Assembly (NCBI GenBank): GCA_025964685.1
Contig: JAOPYG010000103.1
Span: 1 to 38,593, forward strand
Source of the DNA: Actinoallomurus sp.
GTDB lineage: Bacteria > Actinomycetota > Actinomycetes > Streptosporangiales > Streptosporangiaceae
DNA length: 38,593 nt
Direction of reading: 5' to 3'
How positions within the stretch are numbered: the stretch's first letter is position 1; each line of letters starts with the position of its first letter. Made by a program: the position numbers and the translations under genes. The notes under the pieces were generated by a model, which worked only from the letters and a program-made list of their open reading frames with translations, did not search any database and was not told the DNA's origin. Of this stretch, positions 26,955 through 38,540 are shown one piece after another.

Positions 26955-28658
26955 TCAGCGGAACCGCGCGTACACCGACAAGCCGATCAAAACCATGAGC
27001 AATGGCCCCAGAACGGTGAGCGCTGCGAACAGCGCGCTCCGCCCCACCTGGTGGCCGTACGGGACGAGTTCGGGCGGCCGGCCCGCGACCGGCCAGGGCT
27101 CGCGCAGCTCGTCCGCTGCCGGCCGGTCGTCGAACGCCGGATCGACCCGGCCGTCCAGCGGCAGCCCGGCGGCCCAGCCGAACAGCTCGGCCAGCGCGGA
27201 GGGCGGGCTGTCCAGCCCGGACGCGAAGTAACGGACCTCCCCGGCGGTGCGCTCCAGCGTTCGGATGGTGTTGCCGAGGCCGAGCCCGTCGAGCCAGGCA
27301 CGCGCGTCACCGTCGAGGCCGCCGCCGACCGAGGTATGCCGCAGCACGTCGGCCTTGGTGACGACGACCGCGATGCGCCGCTGCCGGCCCTGGTCATCGC
27401 GCGAGCGCAGCTCCGCCAGCAGGCGCTGCAGCGTGTCGGAGGGATCCTCATCGGAGGTCGCGGTGGCGTCCTCGATCACCCTGCGCTCGTCGGTGGAGAG
27501 CGCGAGGCGCAGCTCGGGCAGGGCGAACGGGTCGATGACGAACAGCAACGCCTCGCCGTGGTCGAGATACCGCAGGCGTTCGACGCGGGTCGCGCCCGTG
27601 TGCAGCTCACCGGCCGGATCGAACAGGTAGAGGATCCGGTGGGCGGCCGGCAGGGTCAGATCGAGCATGGTGGCCGCGGGCAGTTCGGGGCCGGTCTTGG
27701 CGAGCCGCTCACCACGGTCGAGCTCGGCGACGGCCGCGGCGTACGCCCGCGCGTCGCGCGCCTCGACGAACTCCGCGCGCCCCTGCGCGCCGGCGGCGCT
27801 CGCGCGCAGCGCGCGTACGGCCAGGAACATCAGTGTCGTCTTGCCGGCCGCCGGCCCCCCGACGAACGGCAGCGGCTCGACCCGGGACCGCCCGATCCGG
27901 CCGGGCAGCCGCCGGTGGCAGTGCGGGCAGTACGCGCCGAGCCGGAACCGGCCCAGCAGGATCGTCGTCGGCAGGCGGGTGCCGCACCGGCAGACGTGCC
28001 GGAAGGCGCCCAGCCGGTTCGGCGCCAGCCGTGAGTGCCGTTCCTCACAGTGGGGACAGGCGTACTCCGGCAGCGCGAATCGCCGGTAGCAACCGGGGTG
28101 CGGGCAGGCGAGCAGGATGCGGCGGTAGGCCATCCAGACGCGCTCGACCGCGCCGAGCACCGTGACGCACACCGACCAGCCGGCCAGCCCGGCGCCCGCC
28201 ATCGCGACGGCCGCGAGCCCGAACGCCAGGGCCGCGACGGCGAGCGGCAGCACCGACAGCGCGATGCCGGCGCACAATCCGAACCACAGCGGGAACAGCG
28301 CGAGCCCCTGGGGGAGCGGCAGCAGCGTCTCGGTCAGCGTGGAGAAGGCCCAGCGGGCCTGGGTCACGCACCAGGGCACGGTACGGCGTTCGAGGGCGAG
28401 CGCGTCACGCCACAGCTGCACCAGCAGATAGTGCGGGTAGGCGGCGTCCGGCGGCCCGGGCGCCGGACGTGTCACCGGGGACGGCCCGTTCAGGCCGGTC
28501 GCGGTGAGGGTGCGCCAGGCGGTCCGGAAGAAGCGGCCCACGCCGAGGCCGAACCCGGCGACCAGCGCGAGCGCGATCGCCACAGGCACGACGAAGACGA
28601 ACTCGGCCGCGACCAGGCCGATCCACAGCAGCACGACCAGCGCGTAGACGAACGGCAT
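26955..28658 (-). CDS. Membrane-anchored zinc-ribbon GTPase of a double-GTPase system
   Basis: Protein of 567 residues. N-terminal TM segments (1-40), further hydrophobic segments at about 118-175 and a final TM at about 545-562. Between them, Cys clusters (CPHPGC, CPHC, CRCG, CPHC; about 185-248) form zinc ribbons. The GTPase domain has P-loop GGPAAGKTT (267-275), a G3-like DPAGE (347-351) and TKAD (434-437). This fits the membrane-side partner in the DO-GTPase pairs encoded with GAP1 proteins. A membrane scaffolding or signalling role is inferred. The ATG is four bases after the stop of the GAP1-like gene. It is the last gene of the operon. Confidence 0.8.
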   Translation of the reverse strand: MPFVYALVVLLWIGLVAAEFVFVVPVAIALALVAGFGLGVGRFFRTAWRTLTATGLNGPSPVTRPAPGPPDAAYPHYLLVQLWRDALALERRTVPWCVTQARWAFSTLTETLLPLPQGLALFPLWFGLCAGIALSVLPLAVAALAFGLAAVAMAGAGLAGWSVCVTVLGAVERVWMAYRRILLACPHPGCYRRFALPEYACPHCEERHSRLAPNRLGAFRHVCRCGTRLPTTILLGRFRLGAYCPHCHRRLPGRIGRSRVEPLPFVGGPAAGKTTLMFLAVRALRASAAGAQGRAEFVEARDARAYAAAVAELDRGERLAKTGPELPAATMLDLTLPAAHRILYLFDPAGELHTGATRVERLRYLDHGEALLFVIDPFALPELRLALSTDERRVIEDATATSDEDPSDTLQRLLAELRSRDDQGRQRRIAVVVTKADVLRHTSVGGGLDGDARAWLDGLGLGNTIRTLERTAGEVRYFASGLDSPPSALAELFGWAAGLPLDGRVDPAFDDRPAADELREPWPVAGRPPELVPYGHQVGRSALFAALTVLGPLLMVLIGLSVYARFR

Positions 28659-28662
28659 GGCC

Positions 28663-31134
28663 TCACGCCCCCCGCCGCCGCAGCGCCCGCCACGCCGAGG
28701 CCAGCCCCGGGTCGCGGTCGGTGAGCGCCGACTCGACGTGCCGCCGGGCGAACCGCCCGAGGTCGTCGCCCCACTCGCTCAGCCGTGGCACCGGCGTACC
28801 CGCCTGGTGCAGGCGTACCTCGATCTCGGCGAGGTCGACGCGGTCCTCCCGGCCGGAGGCGGCGTCGAGCCAGTGGCCGGTCAGGCGTTCCCGTACCGTC
28901 TCGGGCGCGGCCGCCAGGACCTCCGCGCGCGAGCGCGCCGGCCGGTCGGCGAGCGCACCGGCCACCCCCTCGCACACCCGCCCCGTCAGCGGATCGCGCG
29001 CGTCCATCCGGCCGAGGACGCGAGCCACCTCGTGCTCCGTACCTGCCCGCAGCGCCTCGCCGTGACCGAGGACGATCCGCGCGGGACCGGCCAGTACGGG
29101 CAGCCGCTCAGCGACCAGCTCGGCGAGGCGCACGGTCTCGTGCGCGTCGAGAGGCGCGGTCTCGAAGACCCTCCGTGGGAGCCGCCGCAGCGGGGTGAAC
29201 CGCGTCATGGCCGGGCCGAGCCGTTCGATGAGACGGCGGCAGTCATCGGCCGAGGGGGGTGCCTCCCAGAGCGCGGCGAGCAGATCCTCGATGTCCGGCA
29301 GGCCGTACGGCTCGAGCTCCACCAGACCGGCGGTGGCCGCGTGCCGGTCGGCGCGCGTGGCGAGCACGAGACCGCCGGTGCGCGGGGCGCGGGTCCAGTC
29401 GTTGTCACCGAGGGCCTCGCACGCGGCGGGGGTGAGCATGGCCCGCCGCGTGTCGGGATCGGCCGTCTCCAGCCCGGCCACCACACCGGAGACCACGGCC
29501 GGGCGCCACGCGCCGGGGGTCTCGCGCACGGCGGCGGCGATGTCGCCCGCGCCGTGCCGGGCGCACGCGGCGGCGCCCGCGGTCACCTCACCTGTCTGGA
29601 TCCCCCCGCCGACCTGGTCGGCGAGGCGGACGACGCCGGCCAGCGCGTCCAGATCGGCGGCGCCCGCCAGTGCCGCGCGGAACCGGTCGGGCTGGCCGTC
29701 GCGCAGGCGGAGCCCGGGCAGGCGCTCCCGCAGCGACCGGTCCGACAGCGCGAGCGCGACGCAGTGGTCGGCGATCTCCGGCGCGACGTGCGCGAGGGCC
29801 GAGGCCAGCTCGAATCCCACGCCGGGAAGTGCTCCCGCCAGCCCCGGCCAGAGCCAGTCGGGCGCCCCGCCATGCCGTACGAGCGCGGCCGCGGTCGCTT
29901 CCTCGTCGGCGGAGACGGCCGTCGCACCCCGGCACAGCGCGAGCAGGATCGCGGCCCCGTCCGCCGAGGCGAGGACGTCACAGGCCGAAACGCCGCCCGC
30001 CTGGCTTTCGGCGGCGCTCGCCGGTACATGAGCGGCATCGTCCGGCAGGGCCCGCGTGCCGCCGCCCGGCCAGGACCACCGGCCCGGCGATGATGCGCCG
30101 GTACGCTCGCCGGCTGCCGTGCGCCGTTCAGCGGAGCCGCTGGGCGCGGCGGACAGACCGTCGTTCGGACCCTCCGGCGCGGGCATGCCGCCACCGGTCC
30201 ACCGGCCGTTGGGGTCCAAAGTGACGGGGGTCCCGCCACTCCCCGGGGCCGGCCGCCCGCCCGCTATGGGCCACCGGTCGCTCCTGGCGTTCGGCGGCGA
30301 CGGGGCCTCCTGCTCCGGGCCTCCGCTGGTGAGGAGTTCACCGATCGCGTCGATGCCGTCCAGGTCGCCCGTACGCCAGCAGTCGGCGACGACGCGGGCG
30401 AAGCGGCCCGGCCGCCTGTCGTCCCCGCCGGCCGGCTCGTCGAGACGGAACCCGCCGCCCGGCCACGCTTCCGGCACAGTGCCGACGAGGAGCTGCGGCG
30501 CGGACTCGGGATCGGCCGTGTACGTGGTGAAGGACAGGTGCGCGGCCAGGGCGGCCGGCAGGGAGTACGACAGCAGCGCGATCCACCGCGCGATGAGACC
30601 GGTGTCCTCGGCGACCAGCACGACCCGGCCGTGTCCGTCGGCCAGCGCCACCGTCACCGCGTCGAGCAGCACGGCCAGCCGGTCGTGCGCGTCCTGCTCG
30701 ACGAGCCAGGCGATGAGGAACTCCGGCTCGAACGCCTCGCCGGGGACCAGCTCCGGCGCGCCGCCGGGCGGCCCCTCCCACGCCGGTGACTCCCACAGCT
30801 CGATCGGCCGCAACCCCTCCATCTCCTGCGGCGTCGCCACCAGCGCGTGCCCGGAGAAGTTGCCGAACCGGCCGGAGTAGTCGCGGCCCGTGTAGCGGCA
30901 GCGCACCGCGACGGCGTAGTCGCCCTCCCGTCCGTACGCGAGCGAGACGGGAAAGGCCGCCAGCTCCTCCGGACCGGGCGCGGACGGCGCGTCCGGCGGC
31001 GGCCGGTACGTCATGTACGGCGTGACGGCACCGGTCACGACCGGCGGCGTGCCGGGCGAGGTGGCGACGAACTGGAACCCGGACCGGCCGGTCGGACCGG
31101 ACTCCACTGAGGTGTACCGCAGGTCCCATGCCAT
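28663..31134 (-). CDS. GTPase-associated protein 1 (GAP1-like) of a double-GTPase system
   Basis: Soluble protein of 823 residues. The N-terminal part (1-280: WDLRYTSVESGPTGRSGFQF, SLAYGREGDYAVAVRCRYTGRDY, GRFGNFSGHALV) matches the GAP1-N type domain found only next to such GTPases. A low-complexity Pro/Gly/Ser linker (about 285-395) follows, then helical repeats matching the GAP1 middle and C-terminal regions. It has no catalytic motif; a regulatory or adaptor role towards the two flanking GTPases is inferred. The ATG shares a base with the upstream GTPase stop (TGATG). A longer in-frame start inside that gene is not favoured. Confidence 0.8.
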   Translation of the reverse strand: MAWDLRYTSVESGPTGRSGFQFVATSPGTPPVVTGAVTPYMTYRPPPDAPSAPGPEELAAFPVSLAYGREGDYAVAVRCRYTGRDYSGRFGNFSGHALVATPQEMEGLRPIELWESPAWEGPPGGAPELVPGEAFEPEFLIAWLVEQDAHDRLAVLLDAVTVALADGHGRVVLVAEDTGLIARWIALLSYSLPAALAAHLSFTTYTADPESAPQLLVGTVPEAWPGGGFRLDEPAGGDDRRPGRFARVVADCWRTGDLDGIDAIGELLTSGGPEQEAPSPPNARSDRWPIAGGRPAPGSGGTPVTLDPNGRWTGGGMPAPEGPNDGLSAAPSGSAERRTAAGERTGASSPGRWSWPGGGTRALPDDAAHVPASAAESQAGGVSACDVLASADGAAILLALCRGATAVSADEEATAAALVRHGGAPDWLWPGLAGALPGVGFELASALAHVAPEIADHCVALALSDRSLRERLPGLRLRDGQPDRFRAALAGAADLDALAGVVRLADQVGGGIQTGEVTAGAAACARHGAGDIAAAVRETPGAWRPAVVSGVVAGLETADPDTRRAMLTPAACEALGDNDWTRAPRTGGLVLATRADRHAATAGLVELEPYGLPDIEDLLAALWEAPPSADDCRRLIERLGPAMTRFTPLRRLPRRVFETAPLDAHETVRLAELVAERLPVLAGPARIVLGHGEALRAGTEHEVARVLGRMDARDPLTGRVCEGVAGALADRPARSRAEVLAAAPETVRERLTGHWLDAASGREDRVDLAEIEVRLHQAGTPVPRLSEWGDDLGRFARRHVESALTDRDPGLASAWRALRRRGA

Positions 31135-32282
31135 CAGCGGACCCCGTCGAGCATCCCGAACTGGTGTAGCAGCCACAGCAGCGGATCCTCGACCCGGTAG
31201 GGGCGGATGCCGCCCGTGCCGACCGCGCCCTCACGGGGTACGCCGCCGAGCGCGGAGACACCGAACAGGCCGTAGTCGGCGTACTCATGGCTCAGATAAC
31301 GGTCCAGCTCACCGGCCTGCCAGTCGTGCAGCAGCGCACGGACCTGTTCGTGCACGGCCTCCCGGTCGTTCAGGTCGAGCGCGGCGCGTACGGTGCGGTT
31401 CTGCTGCAGCGCGCCGTCGAGCGGCAGCGCGTCGATCTTGGTGAGGGCGACCGCGGCCGGCACCGGGAGCCGCCGGCCGTGCGGCGTGTCCCGGCCGACG
31501 TGCAGCAGCTCGGTGACGCGCGCGATCACGTTGATCGGCTCGCCGTCGGGGTCGCCGCCGCCCGCCTTCAGCTCCAGCGGGTCGACCAGGAAGATGATCG
31601 CGTCGGCCGCCGCGAGATAGCGCAGGTGCAGGTCGGCCACGTCACGGCTGCGCAGATCCTCGCCCGCGGTGTCGAACAGCACCAGCGTCAGCGACATGTC
31701 CTGCTGCCGCATGCGCCGTCGCCGGGTGCGGGTGAGCAGGTAGACCAGCGGGTCGCGGGGGGTCGTGACCGCGCTGGCGGTGGCGGGCAGCAGCCGCCGG
31801 TCGCCGAACAGCGGACGGTGGAAGTCGCGCTTGTAGCGTTCGATGGTGCGGTCGTCACACGCGACCAGCGCGGTCCCGAGCTCGGCGCCGATACGGTGCG
31901 AAAGCTCGTGGAGCAGCACCGCGATGTAGGTGCTCTTGCCGGAGTTCTTCGCCCCGACCAGCGCGACGATCTTGCCTGGTGTCTCGCAGTACGCCCCGGG
32001 CAGTGGGTTGTGACATTCGGGGCAGACACGGCGGGCGGTGTCCTGACCGCACTCGGGACAGGGCGCACGACGCGGGAGCCCACGCCCGAGCCGCCGCCCG
32101 GCCTCGGGCGGATCGAACACCGGAGGCAACGAGGCGGACGCGGCCGAACCGGTGTAGGCGGCGAGCTTCTCGTCGAGCCGGGGTTGGCAGCCCGGCCCAC
32201 GCCCGGGACTGCCTCCGCAGCGGAAGGCGATCCGCTCACGAGGCACGCGCGCGAAGCAGTAGGGACACGTGATGGACGGCAT
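31134..32282 (-). CDS. Zinc-ribbon GTPase (DO-GTPase type)
   Basis: Cytoplasmic GTPase of 382 residues. Two N-terminal zinc-ribbon-like modules (CPYC...RCGG at 6-24 and CPECGQ...CPECHNPLP at 75-95) precede a Ras-like domain: P-loop GAKNSGKST (110-118), G3 DTAGED (204-209) and G4 TKID (281-284). All key GTP-binding motifs are present. It has no TM segment, unlike the second GTPase of the operon. The ATG shares a base with the stop of the 37-codon remnant upstream (TGATG), and its own stop overlaps the GAP1-like start in the same way, so production is tightly coupled. Confidence 0.85.
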   Translation of the reverse strand: MPSITCPYCFARVPRERIAFRCGGSPGRGPGCQPRLDEKLAAYTGSAASASLPPVFDPPEAGRRLGRGLPRRAPCPECGQDTARRVCPECHNPLPGAYCETPGKIVALVGAKNSGKSTYIAVLLHELSHRIGAELGTALVACDDRTIERYKRDFHRPLFGDRRLLPATASAVTTPRDPLVYLLTRTRRRRMRQQDMSLTLVLFDTAGEDLRSRDVADLHLRYLAAADAIIFLVDPLELKAGGGDPDGEPINVIARVTELLHVGRDTPHGRRLPVPAAVALTKIDALPLDGALQQNRTVRAALDLNDREAVHEQVRALLHDWQAGELDRYLSHEYADYGLFGVSALGGVPREGAVGTGGIRPYRVEDPLLWLLHQFGMLDGVR

Positions 32283-32395
32283 CAGCCCGCCTTCAGGTGG
32301 CGCATTGACAGGTCACGTAGCTCGGCGAACACAACAGAGCCCCGGGCGGCGGGACCTCGAGAGGCGGAGCCTTCGCGGCACCTGACGCCGGTCAT
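32282..32395 (-). pseudogene. 37-codon in-frame remnant of a deleted operon gene
   Basis: A complete reading frame MTGVRCREG... to ...HLKAG. It starts by TGATG overlap with the Fn3-like gene and ends by TGATG overlap with the GTPase gene, as full operon members would. Its last 13 residues, ELRDLSMRHLKAG, match the tail of the upstream protein, ELRDPPVRQLRMG. The simplest reading is a paralogue of the Fn3-like gene whose middle was lost by an in-frame deletion, leaving start, tail and both coupling junctions. It may still be translated to keep the GTPase gene coupled. A small functional peptide is the alternative. Confidence 0.55.
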
Positions 32396-34935
32396 CAGCC
32401 CATCCTCAGCTGGCGGACCGGAGGGTCGCGGAGCTCGATCGCGATGTCATCGGCGAAGCAGCGGAGCCAGAACGGCCTCGGCAGCCGGGGCATCGCGGCC
32501 TGGAGGCGCGTGGGTACCTCCACGTCGTCCCAGCTCATCACCGTTTCGCCGTCCGCCGGTCGCTGGGGGAGCGGGCCGGAGCGCGCGACCAGGACGAGCC
32601 GCCGCACCCGGGTCGCCGGCGTGATCGGTGCGGTCAGCGTGACGATCAGCGGGCCGCGCAGGCGTGGCCGCCGGAGCTCGTAGCCGACGATCGCGTGGCC
32701 GGGTACCACCGCCTCGACCGGTGTGCCGGTGACGCGGCGGCCGTACGCGGTGGCGGCCGCCGCGACCTCGATGGTCACCGCCTCGCCTTCGGGCGAGGGG
32801 AGGCGTACGCCGCCGTGGGCGTCGTAGCCGGCCCGGCCGACCGGCAGCCGGTGCGTCTCGCCGTCGCCGGAGTGCCAGCACACCTCGGCCTCGGTGACGT
32901 CCGGCGGCCAGTCGAAGCCCAGCATGATGACATCGCCGCGTCGTTGGGTGACCAGCTCGCGCGGCGGTGTGAGGTTCACGTGGTCGCGGTGTGCGCCGAT
33001 CGTGGCGACGTCGCCGCTGACCGACACCGCGAGCAGCACGCCGGGGCCGGTGCGCACCGCGACGCCGCCGGGCACCGGCGCGGTGCGCAGGACGCGCCCG
33101 GCCCGGCGCACCTCTTCCACGGCGAGCGTCGTACCGGCGGGCCACGGCGGCGGGCCGTTCATCGCGACCATCTCCACCTGGCCGTGCCGGGGCTCGTCGT
33201 AGGTCACCACGAGGTGTCCGGCCGGGTCCTGCTCGACACTGAGGTCGCTGACGGGATCGGGCCGCGCGGCCGGGGTCGCCGCGGCGTGCACGCCGGGGGT
33301 GATGATCTCGTGTCCGTCGGCGCTGAGGTACGCGGCCGCGATCCGGTAGTGGTACGTCGTGCCGTTGGCGACCGTCTCGTCGCGGAAGCCGCCTCGTTCG
33401 GCCGGGATCGGCGTGCCGTCGCGGGTTACCAGGACGCGTACCGCCTCTGGCGGGCAGGCCCAGCGCGCCGCGACCACGCCGTCGGTGGCGCGCAGGAACA
33501 CGTCGGCGGGCTCCGGGCGTACGTGCAGCGGGCCGGCGACGGCGGGCGCGGAGGCCGCCGCGCCGCGTACCGCGAACACCGCGTAGTACAAAGGAGCGTT
33601 CAGCGGCGGCGCCGCGTCACGGGCGAAACCGTCGCCGGAGCGCAGCGTCTCGCCGTCACCGGGGTGACGGGGCACGCGCCCGAGGCAGCGGGCGACGATG
33701 TAGCCGATGTCGCCGACCCGTGACGGCGTCTGCGGCCACGACAGCGCCACCTCCGTGCCCTCGATCACCGCCTCGATCCGGCCGGGCGCGCGGGGCGGCA
33801 GCCCGGCCTGCAGGTCCGCCGCGCCGGGCAGGTCGCCGACGAGCCGCAGCGCGTCGGCGAGCCGCAGCCACGCCTCGTCGGGATCGGAGAGTACGAGCGC
33901 GGCGGCCTCCTGCCGCAGGGCGGTCGCCGCCGTGATGCGCCGCCGGGCCTCGGCGGCCAGGATCTCCGCGTCACCGGACAGCTCGGCCGCCCCTGCCACG
34001 TCGGCGAGCTCGGCGGCGGCGTGGATCTCCCCGGCGTCGATGAGGTCGCGCAGCCGCGCGGCCAGGCCGCCCGGCGTGCCGCTCTCGCGAAGGACCGAGA
34101 AGACCAGCCGCCGCGCGTGGTCGTCGTCCACGCCGAGGTCATCGGCGGCGAACCGGAGCAGCGCGCCCTGCGAGGCCCGCTGCTGGTGCCGCTCGCGCAG
34201 CCGCGCCACCACGTCGTAGAGGATCAGCTCACCGAGGCGGTCGCCGGCACCCTTCAGCGTGATGAGCACCGTGTCGGCGTTGGTGCGGTTGCCGTCGTGC
34301 GGCCGGCGGCTCCACTGTTCGCTCACCCGCCGGATCGCCGGGCGCAGGTCCGGTGTGCCCCCGAGCACCCGGCCGGCCCGCTTTTCGCCGGTGACGAACT
34401 CGCGCAGGTGACGCGCGCCCAGGGCGTCGAGCGCGTCGCGGGCGCGGGGATAGCCGGCGTACGGCGGCGCGGACGGCAGGACGTCGGGCTCGCGGATCTC
34501 GATCCCGGCCGCGCGGGCCAGCTCCGCCGCCTCGCCGCCGATCTCGCGCAGGTCACCGGGGGCCAGCATCGCCATCTCACCGGCGGCGTCGAGCAGCCGG
34601 TGGCGCAACTCCGCACGCCGGCGGTCGGTCTTGCCCGTGGCGGTGGTCAGCTCGGCGCGCAACGGCGCCAGGTCGCCCAGCACGGCCCGCTCGAACAGCG
34701 GTGCGAGCTTGAGATGGTCGCCCTCCAGCCGGTCGATGAGCCGCCGGAAGCGCAGCTGCCCCCGCGACTTGCGCCAGCACATCCGTACGCTCTTGACGCT
34801 TTCGGCCACCTCGCGGGAGTTGAGCGGCTCTATGAGGGCATAGCGCACGCGCAGGTCGTCAGGCGGCTGGTTGCCGGCCACCCGGGCGGGCTCCAGCACC
34901 TCACGGACATAACGTTGTTCGTCAAAGACCGGCAC
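32395..34935 (-). CDS. Large Fn3-like protein of the Hsp70/double-GTPase operon
   Basis: Protein of 846 residues with no signal peptide or TM segment. Residues 1-440 are mostly helical (for example LRFRRLIDRLEGDHLKLAPL), and the remainder is a series of beta-sandwich units with fibronectin-III character (EVALSWPQTPSRVGDIGYIV, TTYHYRIAAAYLSADGHE, VIMLGFDWPPDVTEAEVCW). No enzymatic motif was seen. It is probably an adaptor or client of the Hsp70, whose gene ends eight bases upstream. The GTG start at 34935 is the first after the Hsp70 stop; longer in-frame starts would overlap Hsp70 coding sequence. Confidence 0.7.
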   Translation of the reverse strand: MPVFDEQRYVREVLEPARVAGNQPPDDLRVRYALIEPLNSREVAESVKSVRMCWRKSRGQLRFRRLIDRLEGDHLKLAPLFERAVLGDLAPLRAELTTATGKTDRRRAELRHRLLDAAGEMAMLAPGDLREIGGEAAELARAAGIEIREPDVLPSAPPYAGYPRARDALDALGARHLREFVTGEKRAGRVLGGTPDLRPAIRRVSEQWSRRPHDGNRTNADTVLITLKGAGDRLGELILYDVVARLRERHQQRASQGALLRFAADDLGVDDDHARRLVFSVLRESGTPGGLAARLRDLIDAGEIHAAAELADVAGAAELSGDAEILAAEARRRITAATALRQEAAALVLSDPDEAWLRLADALRLVGDLPGAADLQAGLPPRAPGRIEAVIEGTEVALSWPQTPSRVGDIGYIVARCLGRVPRHPGDGETLRSGDGFARDAAPPLNAPLYYAVFAVRGAAASAPAVAGPLHVRPEPADVFLRATDGVVAARWACPPEAVRVLVTRDGTPIPAERGGFRDETVANGTTYHYRIAAAYLSADGHEIITPGVHAAATPAARPDPVSDLSVEQDPAGHLVVTYDEPRHGQVEMVAMNGPPPWPAGTTLAVEEVRRAGRVLRTAPVPGGVAVRTGPGVLLAVSVSGDVATIGAHRDHVNLTPPRELVTQRRGDVIMLGFDWPPDVTEAEVCWHSGDGETHRLPVGRAGYDAHGGVRLPSPEGEAVTIEVAAAATAYGRRVTGTPVEAVVPGHAIVGYELRRPRLRGPLIVTLTAPITPATRVRRLVLVARSGPLPQRPADGETVMSWDDVEVPTRLQAAMPRLPRPFWLRCFADDIAIELRDPPVRQLRMG

Positions 34936-34943
34936 GTCCGAGG

Positions 34944-36527
34944 TCAGTCCACGCGCATGTGGGCCAGGTCCGTACGGGACTCCTGCACCTCGTCCTCGGA
35001 CATGCCGCCGACGCGCACATCGAGGGTGAGCTGCTCCTCGGTCTCCTTTTCGACCGCGGTGACGTGCAGCAGCCCGGCGGTGTCGAGGGCGAACCTCACC
35101 AGGATGGGATAGCCGGCCGGCTTGCCGGGCGGGATCTTCAGCTCGCCGTCCGCGATCGGGTTGTTGTGCGCGACCTCGGTCGACTCCGCGCTGCCGGCCT
35201 GCTCGACCACGATGATCTTCACGATGGTCTGGTCTTCGTCGACGGTACCGAACTCGCGTGACTTGCCGCGCGGCAGCGCGTCGTTGGCGTGCACGAGGTG
35301 AACGACGTGCTCCTGCCCGGTGACCGGGTCGAGGGCGATGACGCCGAACGCGCGCGAGGCCACGGTCGTGATCTGGCGCGCCGCGATGCGCTCCTGTTCG
35401 GCCTCGGACAGACCGGCGCGGGAGGCCAGGTCGCGGGCCTTGTCGCCCTCGCCCTTGGCCAGCAGCTGGCGGTAGGTCTCCTCGAAGGCGTACAGCGCGG
35501 CGCCCTTGGCCACCGCGAGATCGGGATCTTGCAGCTTGGGCTTCAGCGACAGCTCGCTGGACAGCCGCTGGGGCACCGCGGGCATCTTGGTGGAGCCGCC
35601 GACGAGCACCAGGTCGTCGTAGTCGCTGACGCCCTTTTCCGCCGCCGTCGCGAGGGTGCGCCCGGTGATCTCGATGGTGCGGTCGAGCAGATCCCTGGTG
35701 ATCTCCTCGAACTTGTCCCGGGTCAGCTCGATCGTCGCGACCCGGCCCTCGTGCATGACGCGTACGACGTGCTGCGTGCGCACCGACAGGGCCTTCTTGG
35801 TCTCCTCCGCGTCGTGGCGGAGCTGCTGCTCGGTGTGGCGGTCCTCGAGCGGGTCGCCGACGTCGGGATGCTCCTCGCTGAAACGCTCGGCGAGGTATTC
35901 GACCAGCCGCGAGTCCCAGTCGGCGCCGCCGAGCTCGTGGTCGCCGTCGGTGCACACGACGCCGATGTCACCGTCGCGCAGGGTGATGACGGTCGTGTCG
36001 AACGTGCCGCCGCCCAGGTCGTACACCAGGATGGTGCGGTTCTGGTCGGGGTTGAGCACGCCGTAGGTGATCGCGGCGGCCACCGGCTCGGAGATGATGT
36101 CGATGACGTTGAGCCCGGCGATGTGCCCGGCCTTGCGGGTGGCGTCGCGCTCGGCCGCGCCGAAGTAGGCGGGTACCGTGATGACGACGTCGGTCGCCTC
36201 CTCGCCGGTCGTGGCGGTGGCGTCGGAGACCAGCTTGCGCAGGACGAACGCGGAGATCTCCTCGGGGGAGTAGTCGCGTCCGTGCAGGTCGCGGGTGACC
36301 TCGTGGCCCATGTCCCGCTTGATCAGGCTCACCACCAGCTCGGGGGAGAGCACGGCGGTGTCCTTGGCCGGCGCGCCGACCACGACGTTGTCCCCCGACT
36401 CGAAGTAGACGACCGACGGCGTCGTGTCGGTGCCCTCCATGTTGCGCAGGACCGTGGGACGTCCGACGTCGCCGATCCGCGCGATGCAGGAATGGGTCGT
36501 GCCAAGATCGATTCCGTAGACAGCCAT
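34944..36527 (-). CDS. Hsp70 (DnaK-like) chaperone lacking the C-terminal lid
   Basis: ATP-driven chaperone of 527 residues, against about 620-640 for housekeeping DnaK. The actin-like ATPase is intact: DLGTTHSC (7-14), YDLGGGTFD (169-177) and VGGSTKMP (309-316). A beta-type substrate-binding part follows (about 400-510, with GQEHVVHLVHANDALPRG and GLLHVTAVEKETEEQL). The protein then stops, so the helical lid and the C-terminal tail are missing. An insert between the ATPase and the beta domain (GEGDKARDLASRAGLSEAEQ) is unusual. GGAGGGG precedes the ATG, which is one base after the grpE stop. It is a system-dedicated paralogue. Confidence 0.92.
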   Translation of the reverse strand: MAVYGIDLGTTHSCIARIGDVGRPTVLRNMEGTDTTPSVVYFESGDNVVVGAPAKDTAVLSPELVVSLIKRDMGHEVTRDLHGRDYSPEEISAFVLRKLVSDATATTGEEATDVVITVPAYFGAAERDATRKAGHIAGLNVIDIISEPVAAAITYGVLNPDQNRTILVYDLGGGTFDTTVITLRDGDIGVVCTDGDHELGGADWDSRLVEYLAERFSEEHPDVGDPLEDRHTEQQLRHDAEETKKALSVRTQHVVRVMHEGRVATIELTRDKFEEITRDLLDRTIEITGRTLATAAEKGVSDYDDLVLVGGSTKMPAVPQRLSSELSLKPKLQDPDLAVAKGAALYAFEETYRQLLAKGEGDKARDLASRAGLSEAEQERIAARQITTVASRAFGVIALDPVTGQEHVVHLVHANDALPRGKSREFGTVDEDQTIVKIIVVEQAGSAESTEVAHNNPIADGELKIPPGKPAGYPILVRFALDTAGLLHVTAVEKETEEQLTLDVRVGGMSEDEVQESRTDLAHMRVD

Positions 36528-36528
36528 G

Positions 36529-37095
36529 TCAATCCCCTCCGGCCGGGTCGGCCGCCATCCGGGCGACGATGACCTCGGCCCGTCGAACGACCTTTTCGCC
36601 GCGGACGAAGCCGGTGCGCTGGACGGTCACGACCGTGCCGTCCAGCTCCACGTCGTCCACATCGCGTGTGCCGGCGGGGCGGTGCCTCGCCGGATCGAAC
36701 GGATCGCCCTCATCAACGGGCATGCGCTCGACCCCCGTGCGCGCGATGATCTCGGCCAGCTCGTCGGCGATCGCCGCCAAGAGCTTGGGTACGTGTGCAG
36801 GATCCGCCGTCTCCCGCTCCGACTCACGCCGGACCAGGTCATAGAGGCGGTAGAGCGATGTGCGGACCGGCTCGAAGGCGGACTGCAGCTCGTTGTGCCG
36901 CAGCCGCTGGTTCTCGTCGTGCAGCCGGTCGATGACGCGCTCGCGGTGCACGGCCCGATCATGCTCGCGGCCCGTCGTCCGCGCGAGGTCGGCCAGCACA
37001 CCGTGAATGCGGTCGAGGGATGCCTCAATGGACCCATCGGCGGAGGCCGACGGGGACCTGGTCCCGCCATTGGGGGAAGAGGGATCATCGGGCAT
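36529..37095 (-). CDS. grpE: GrpE-type nucleotide exchange factor
   Basis: Partner that would release ADP from the adjacent Hsp70. It has 188 residues: a disordered acidic and Ser/Pro N-terminus, a coiled-coil stretch (about 25-75) and the beta-rich head with MPVDEGDPFDPARH and a final VVRRAEVIVAR strand typical of GrpE. First gene of the operon. The ATG at 37095 has no Shine-Dalgarno sequence; TATGGT nine bases upstream could be a -10 box for a leaderless mRNA. An in-frame ATG at 37149 would add 18 residues. Confidence 0.85.
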   Translation of the reverse strand: MPDDPSSPNGGTRSPSASADGSIEASLDRIHGVLADLARTTGREHDRAVHRERVIDRLHDENQRLRHNELQSAFEPVRTSLYRLYDLVRRESERETADPAHVPKLLAAIADELAEIIARTGVERMPVDEGDPFDPARHRPAGTRDVDDVELDGTVVTVQRTGFVRGEKVVRRAEVIVARMAADPAGGD

Positions 37096-37925: not shown

Positions 37926-38540
37926 CTAGCGGACGGCCGCACCGGGCTGGCGCTGGCGCTCGGCCATGACGGACAGCACGTGCTCCACCAGCGTGATCAG
38001 TACCTGCTTGCCCGACTCGCGCTTGCGCACGTCGCACAGGATGACCGGGATCTTCGGGTCGAGGTCGAGGGCGGCCCGGATCTCCTCGGAGTCGTACCTC
38101 AGCGCGCCGTCGAAGCAGTTGACCCCGATGATGAACGGAAGCCGGCGGCGCTCGAAGTAGTCGATCGAGGGGAAGCAGTCGGCGAGACGCCGGGTGTCGG
38201 CCAGCACGACCGCGCCCAGGGCACCGAGCGCGAGCTCGTCCCACATGAACCAGAAGCGGTCCTGACCGGGCGTACCGAACAGGTAGAGGACCAGGCCGTC
38301 CCGGATGGTGATACGGCCGAAGTCCATCGCCACGGTCGTTGTGGTCTTGCGCTCCACGCCGGAGACGTCATCGACGCCGACGCTGCGGTCGGTGAGCTGT
38401 TCCTCGGTCCGCAGCGGCCGGATCTCGCTGACCGCGCCGACCATGCTGGTCTTGCCGACACCGAATCCACCCGCCACGAGGATCTTCACGGCGAGCGGCA
38501 TGGCAGCGCCCCGGGAGGGGTCAGAGCGCTTGGAGTCCAT
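37926..38540 (-). CDS. Conservon small GTPase (CvnD type)
   Basis: Ras/MglA-like nucleotide-binding protein of 204 residues, the last component of actinomycete conservons (sensor kinase, roadblock protein, DUF742 protein, GTPase), which act together at the membrane in development and signalling. P-loop GGFGVGKTS (24-32) and G3 FGTPGQDRF (89-97). The G4 motif is altered to GVNCFDG, as usual for the group. The ATG lies inside the end of the DUF742 gene (20-base overlap), so the two are coupled. A second in-frame ATG at 38501 is possible. Confidence 0.92.
   Translation of the reverse strand: MDSKRSDPSRGAAMPLAVKILVAGGFGVGKTSMVGAVSEIRPLRTEEQLTDRSVGVDDVSGVERKTTTTVAMDFGRITIRDGLVLYLFGTPGQDRFWFMWDELALGALGAVVLADTRRLADCFPSIDYFERRRLPFIIGVNCFDGALRYDSEEIRAALDLDPKIPVILCDVRKRESGKQVLITLVEHVLSVMAERQRQPGAAVR

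Follow-up and report, generated by a model that had tools for sequence, protein, structure and literature searches.

A helical/FN-III protein as candidate adaptor between a lidless Hsp70 and a GAP1-N2 double-GTPase core in Actinoallomurus sp.

GAP1-N2 systems have been described by comparative genomics as sets of two DO-GTPases, one of them carrying transmembrane helices, accompanied by a protein with fibronectin type III (FN-III) domains (Kaur et al. 2020, PMC7159879). According to the accessible portion of that paper, a HSP70/GrpE theme, in which the FN-III protein typically comes fused to DnaJ or TPR, is found in about 14% of the GAP1-N2 neighbourhoods, and the systems are proposed to be conflict systems, associated with a multicellular habit; DO-GTPase/GAP1 systems are also mentioned in passing in the accessible text of PMC11237479. 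No biochemical test of them was found in the open-licence PMC literature, where subscription work may be missed. The window analysed here is a stretch of 38,593 nucleotides from Actinoallomurus sp. (contig JAOPYG010000103.1), which carries on its minus strand, from 37095 to 26955, an operon encoding a GrpE, an Hsp70, a large Fn3 protein, a soluble zinc-ribbon GTPase, a GAP1 protein and a membrane zinc-ribbon GTPase (Table 1). Profile matches identify this operon as a double-GTPase system of GAP1-N2 type and, within it, of the HSP70/GrpE sub-type, a kind already known. A preliminary description, made from the letters of the window, had likened the GTPase/GAP1 set to predictions of comparative genomics, and the published theme, as far as its available text goes, bears this out.

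From sequence comparison, it is on balance probable that the Fn3 protein is an adaptor, linking a lidless, J-independent Hsp70 to the GTPase/GAP1 core. This role is proposed because its N-terminal domain (Ndom) follows Hsp70 in the genomes, its FN-III part can accompany the GTPases alone, and the window protein has both, according to the logic of a fusion link. In the AlphaFold model of the protein (predicted local distance difference test, pLDDT, 92.4), a helical Ndom covers residues ~1-175, further helices continue to ~380, and FN-III-like beta domains extend to the end. The protein has no Pfam match of its own; a Foldseek search with the model retrieved the FN-III arrays of fibronectin (best E 2.9e-13), and, of 30 family members that were aligned, six match fn3 with E <= 1 (best 1.5e-5), so that its initial classification as a large Fn3-like protein holds.

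The distribution of Ndom was evaluated in 394 genomes of the class by using an alignment (A6) of 32 rows, most of which came from loci chosen for their GAP1-N2 or their Fn3 protein rather than for an Hsp70. With the best 8 Ndom candidates and the best 3 Hsp70 candidates scored per genome, 88 Ndom matches were found in 52 genomes, and 89 matches to system-type Hsp70 in 50 genomes, at a cut-off of E <= 1e-85, picked after the best DnaK had been seen to score about 1e-76; in one further distribution search, the best 2 candidates per genome were scored. Adjacency was defined as location on the same contig and strand, and GAP1-N2 was considered nearby when within 12 kb. By these definitions 82 of the 88 Ndoms lie directly downstream of a system-type Hsp70, with a match-to-match gap of 14-973 bases (median 178), and, reciprocally, 82/89 system-type Hsp70s are followed by a Ndom. 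Of the six Ndoms for which no Hsp70 was listed, the one in G616 is preceded by a fragment of an Hsp70 (L286).

Most Ndoms (67/88) have no GAP1-N2 in their vicinity. Conversely, the 55 GAP1-N2 matches comprise 18 with both Ndom and Hsp70, 31 with neither, 3 with Ndom only and 3 with Hsp70 only; one genome (G039), where GAP1 sits on a different contig from the paired Ndom and Hsp70, probably holds a single broken system and is counted in both the 67 and the 31. Two stand-alone arrangements are observed, either Hsp70 followed by a Ndom protein, or GrpE, Hsp70 and a long Ndom/Fn3 protein (frames of 1,211-1,507 aa). Operons of a lidless Hsp70 and a Ndom protein, devoid of DO-GTPase and GAP1 and falling into the two arrangements, are those of L242-L246 and L278-L297; in L280, L283 and L287 one partner was detected and the other was not. 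The opposite case is provided by L238-L240, where FN-III part, GTPases and GAP1 are kept and neither Ndom nor Hsp70 was detected.

Hsp70 positions are given in E. coli DnaK numbering, which we assume to be correctly mapped by motif, R167 being taken four residues before E171 and the linker being counted back from G400. The window Hsp70 lacks the SBDalpha lid of the substrate-binding domain (SBD) of canonical DnaK, as judged from DnaK alignments and from its relatives; the preliminary description had called it shortened, and the missing piece is the lid, which it had not named. In the order, 69 Hsp70s were aligned, the window protein and those of 68 of the 80 loci, and every one of them terminates where SBDbeta does; in the loci examined from other families, the Hsp70s adjoining a Ndom extend at most 68 residues beyond that point. 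The ATPase residues are kept in every aligned row (equivalents of D8, T11, K70, E171, D194, T199 and D201), and the F426 position is F in 93/104 system Hsp70s.

Two features of canonical DnaK, the docking arginine R167 and the linker residue D393, are replaced in the window Hsp70 by D143 and T388. According to the accessible parts of the relevant reports, R167 contacts D35 of the HPD motif and H33 contacts L391 (PMC13012618, PMC8215388), R167 is needed for J action (PMC4199505, PMC13012618, PMC8215388), and an E. coli DnaK carrying R167H is functional only with J proteins bearing a compensating change (PMC4199505); J-domain proteins are termed obligatory Hsp70 cochaperones in the portion consulted of PMC7289447. 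Among the 69 order Hsp70s, the R167 position is occupied by D in 60 cases and by N in the other 9, and R is found at this position in none of 104 system Hsp70s (69 from the order plus 12, 13 and 10 from other families). The comparison set has arginine in 18 of its 20 rows, the remaining two, L310 and L311, being system Hsp70s swept into it and already included among the 104; L004 and L005 represent one gene. The VLLLD linker is likewise replaced in the order rows, where D occupies the D393 position in 0/69, against 15/15 readable comparison rows, L310 and L311 set aside. A tree built on the nucleotide-binding domain gathers the 106 system rows (2 duplicates) into one clade that excludes the 17 others, with a local support of 0.951.

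Other Hsp70s deserve mention. L241, adjacent to a partial Fn3 hit (an 834-aa frame with no Ndom), has K at the R167 position. L306 and L307, from another genus, are lidless and keep both R167 and D393, offering a small natural contrast; in L306 (G342:C105) a J-domain match lies about 1 kb from the Hsp70. A second Hsp70, or a fragment of one, is found within or beside the operon in L042, L078, L097, L099, L236 and L237.

J domains were sought with a profile built from 20 DnaJ loci, which matched 30/30 DnaJ loci, those 20 included. When it was run against the open reading frames of at least 80 aa of the system loci (E <= 10, HMMER filters on), no J domain was detected in the operons. None of the 30 Fn3-family members matched DnaJ, two gave a match to TPR_19 (best E 0.014), and a profile-profile comparison of the J domain with the Fn3 family returned a probability of 0.1%. 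A DHPRY or RPD stretch, noticed by eye in relatives, had raised the possibility that a degenerate J domain makes up Ndom or the central part of the Fn3 protein; the idea was discarded, as both profile searches were negative. Given the lost J-docking arginine and the failure to detect a J domain in any of the operons, Ndom appears the likeliest driver of the Hsp70, either as a J substitute or as a lid in trans. No description of this chaperone half, a lidless, R167-less Hsp70 with Ndom, was found in the open-licence PMC literature.

According to the model that we propose, GrpE, lidless Hsp70 and Ndom would form a separate chaperone unit, plugged onto a GAP1-N2 double-GTPase core made up of the soluble zinc-ribbon GTPase, the membrane zinc-ribbon GTPase and GAP1. 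Ndom would bind or recruit Hsp70, replacing a J protein, and the FN-III part of the adaptor would contact the GTPase/GAP1 assembly; cycles of ATP hydrolysis by Hsp70, reset by GrpE, could then load, remodel or release this assembly at the membrane. Physical binding, the use of Ndom as J substitute and the GTPase/GAP1 complex as client are all steps that we infer. The membrane GTPase switch under chaperone control that the preliminary description had pictured stays an inference: the coupling of the genes speaks for an adaptor joining the chaperone to the GTPase core, and not for a direction of control. The loss of the J-docking arginine and the existence of the chaperone pair without GTPases go beyond that description. 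More tentatively, and with somewhat less confidence than we place in the adaptor itself, these Hsp70s may represent a distinct actinomycete clade, lidless and without the J-docking arginine, which would have abandoned J control to be driven by Ndom, standing alone in most occurrences and being recruited, through fusion to FN-III, to a membrane double-GTPase/GAP1 switch.

Several observations weigh against this picture. Ndom is present without a linked Hsp70 in G110 (twice) and in G098, and system-type Hsp70 without a detected Ndom in G557, G485 and G657; copies can be missed, given the number of candidates scored per genome. In five loci of genus g34 (L068, L070, L073, L074, L075) the Fn3 protein has no linked Hsp70 in the fetched stretch, and L053, L060 and L066 have neither Fn3 protein nor linked Hsp70. 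The J site is partly kept, D393 being found in 4/10 type-C linkers, and N170 and T173 being retained in 10/10 type-C and 11/13 type-B rows. Because the system Hsp70s form one clade and the genomes counted are related, the loss of R167 may be a single event. In G011, a J-domain gene (G011:C88:351678-351878) adjoins another Hsp70 (349288-350700) and lies, outside the fetched stretch, about 8 kb from the Hsp70 (341745-343361) of the second GAP1-N2 system of that genome. Finally, the window genome contains four J-domain matches elsewhere, and a DnaJ of the housekeeping set might serve the system Hsp70 in trans. As for the g34 loci, GTPases and GAP1 are present, no GrpE is linked within the fetched stretch either, and the Fn3 protein has an open frame of 1,332-1,519 aa in four loci and of 570 aa in L075.

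The components of the core were assigned by Pfam profiles, which scored above cut-off for the GrpE, Hsp70, zinc-ribbon GTPases and GAP1-like protein named in the preliminary description and placed neither the GTPases nor the 823-residue protein in unrelated families. The conserved Walker B glutamate of TRAFAC-type DO-GTPases is present within a conserved DTAGE/DPAGE stretch, and both GTPases exceed the PF19993 cut-off. The soluble GTPase carries the motifs GAKNSGKS (P-loop), DTAGE and TKID, together with eight zinc-ribbon cysteines (C6, C9, C22, C32, C75, C78, C87, C90), all invariant in the 11 rows of alignment A3; two N-terminal zinc ribbons are a trait of the published GAP1-N2 systems. The hydrophobic stretches of the membrane GTPase (1-44, 118-171, 538-566) fit a 4+1 arrangement, its N-terminal helices being merged in a simple hydropathy plot. 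In GAP1 the N2 and M domains are over cut-off and the C domain gave no match, though a C-terminal, all-helical (alpha-solenoid-like) part follows in the model (residues 384-822; pLDDT 83.9). The mean identity of the C-terminal half is 33%, against 51% for residues 1-270, and a sensor or target surface, if any, may sit there. A known effector fold in this part was rejected, comparison of the model with PDB giving no match at E <= 0.001. Residues ~274-379 form a long, low-confidence and probably disordered insert, corresponding to a gap in most relatives.

The operon and its six core genes are confirmed by direct reading of the frames, which run in tandem, their junctions measuring -1 to +8 bases: one base separates GrpE from Hsp70, 8 bases Hsp70 from the Fn3 protein and 4 bases GAP1 from the membrane GTPase. 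TGATG overlaps, previously noticed, were read directly at three junctions (Fn3 protein/37-aa frame, 37-aa frame/soluble GTPase, soluble GTPase/GAP1). The preliminary description had counted seven packed frames; the spacing is exact and the six core genes stand, whereas the 37-aa frame is doubtful as a real gene, since it has no Pfam match and there is no room for it in the genus-mate L037, where the Fn3 and GTPase genes overlap directly. The window GrpE also matches a PDB GrpE (3a6m, E 1.2e-6). Control by heat-shock operators was dropped, as the search returned no CIRCE match and nothing above chance for HAIR, namely one HAIR-like site with 3 mismatches, inside a gene (0.36 expected by chance). 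Upstream of the operon lies a small GTPase gene, which we take to resemble the D gene of a conservon. Relatives of this gene and of the downstream dehydrogenase are each present in 6/8 fetched same-genus loci; the comparison of flanking genes holds at the genus level, clustering across genera being muddied by overlapping antisense frames.

Table 1. Features of the operon and its upstream neighbour, in positions of the window
Feature	Position	Strand	Support
GrpE-like nucleotide exchange factor, 188 aa	36529..37095	-	PF01025 49.9 bits, E 3.8e-13, cut-off 25.8
Hsp70, lidless, 527 aa: nucleotide-binding domain and SBDbeta, no SBDalpha	34944..36527	-	PF00012 353.9 bits, cut-off 20.6; DnaK alignments
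Candidate adaptor (Fn3/helical protein), 846 aa, GTG start	32395..34935	-	AlphaFold model, Foldseek FN-III, module distribution
Ndom-coding part of the candidate adaptor (first row of alignment A6)	34408..34935	-	A6 search
37-aa frame between adaptor and GTPase, probably unconserved	32282..32395	-	no Pfam match; no room in L037
Soluble DO-GTPase, zinc ribbon, 382 aa	31134..32282	-	PF19993 38.7 bits, cut-off 27
GAP1, 823 aa	28663..31134	-	GAP1-N2 PF20013 123.2 bits, GAP1-M PF20014 83.5 bits, cut-off 24 each
Membrane zinc-ribbon DO-GTPase	26955..28658	-	PF19993 75.8 bits, cut-off 27; hydropathy, Cys positions
Small GTPase gene (ATP_bind_1) upstream of the operon	37926..38540	-	PF03029

GAP1-N2 is present in 152/345 genomes of the order and in 50/394 genomes of the class. 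A subset of the order matches, 80 loci, was fetched solely for the GAP1-N2 match; loci cut by a contig end (L041, L045, L054, L057, L105) were left among them. All six components are found on one strand and in the order of the window in 63 of these loci, and the association of the six genes exceeds chance; the survey of other actinomycetes suggested at the outset thus found the genes conserved together. Taken singly, Hsp70 lies on the same strand as GAP1 in 69, GrpE in 66 and the Fn3 protein in 76 loci. The plain order also recurs in 64/80 named loci, a set biased by its choice via the Fn3 protein and overlapping the first, which includes Actinomadura, Actinoallomurus, Thermomonospora, Sphaerisporangium, Nonomuraea and Herbidospora. 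Computed for 62 loci including the window, the distance matrices of the six proteins correlate with r between 0.872 and 0.975, without control for the species tree. Mobility of the operon was discarded: plasmids and phages yielded no relative of the Fn3 protein at E <= 1e-10, nor did a pattern-based scan for viral contigs.

What the whole system does may be explained in different ways. Following the proposal of Kaur et al., it would be a conflict system directed against invaders, in which the FN-III protein senses the invader, GTPase and GAP1 act as a threshold switch and Hsp70 builds or gates a complex by which the infected cell is halted. The published prediction and the association with a multicellular habit, as given in the accessible part of PMC7159879, speak for it, together with the patchy presence of GAP1-N2 and the lower conservation of the C-terminal half of GAP1; however, no toxin, nuclease or protease Pfam match was found in the operon, PADLOC gave no match for the six proteins, mobile relatives are missing at the thresholds given above, and both gene order and, within the genus, neighbours are held, so that we consider it rather unlikely. 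A resident regulator of envelope or development, slightly less doubtful in our judgement, would use the GTPases to report the state of membrane or wall, the chaperone unit maintaining the complex or sensing misfolded envelope protein. The hydrophobic stretches of the membrane GTPase agree with this, as does a pattern resembling vertical descent (order kept, flanks kept in the genus, high matrix correlations); kept order, kept neighbours and the lack of mobile relatives fit it at least as well as they fit conflict defence. Such a regulator is, however, not generally essential, the GAP1-N2 system being missing from 344/394 class genomes, and no heat-shock operator was seen.

Other alternatives concern the chaperone alone. 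Ndom might be a lid in trans, an all-helical domain closing the SBDbeta of a lidless Hsp70: the Hsp70s examined beside a Ndom do lack the lid, the AlphaFold model shows Ndom as helical, and the phenylalanine at the F426 position is largely retained, but the change at the R167 position points instead at the J site, and this explanation appears improbable. It is very improbable that the Hsp70 is an ordinary folding helper, served by the housekeeping DnaJ and placed in the operon for co-expression only. Its ATPase residues are intact and J-domain matches exist elsewhere in the genome, but the R167 position is changed in 104/104 system Hsp70s, the linker that contacts the J protein is also changed, and the pairing with Ndom is close. 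A bacterial Hsp70 clade missing the J-docking arginine and the lid, with ATPase residues and genetic partner kept, would provide a natural test of other Hsp70 drivers. The adaptor would also offer a handle on DO-GTPase/GAP1 systems, as its halves are separately assayable and natural versions exist without either half.

Compared with DnaK/DnaJ/GrpE, the window shares the Hsp70 ATPase site, a SBDbeta with most pocket residues and a GrpE partner; it differs in that its Hsp70 is lidless, with an altered linker and no R167 equivalent, and no J protein was detected in the operon. With the GAP1-N2 HSP70/GrpE theme, as described in the accessible part of PMC7159879, it has in common zinc-ribbon DO-GTPases, one of them membrane-bound, GAP1-N2, an FN-III protein, HSP70 and GrpE; its FN-III protein, unlike that of the theme, carries Ndom, and no J domain was detected in it, although the figures of that source may already show Ndom. 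The GAP1-N2 loci of genome family f20 (L238-L240) have an FN-III protein without a detected Ndom, and no Hsp70/GrpE was detected in the fetched stretch, whereas FN-III protein, two DO-GTPases and GAP1 are shared with the window, in the same order.

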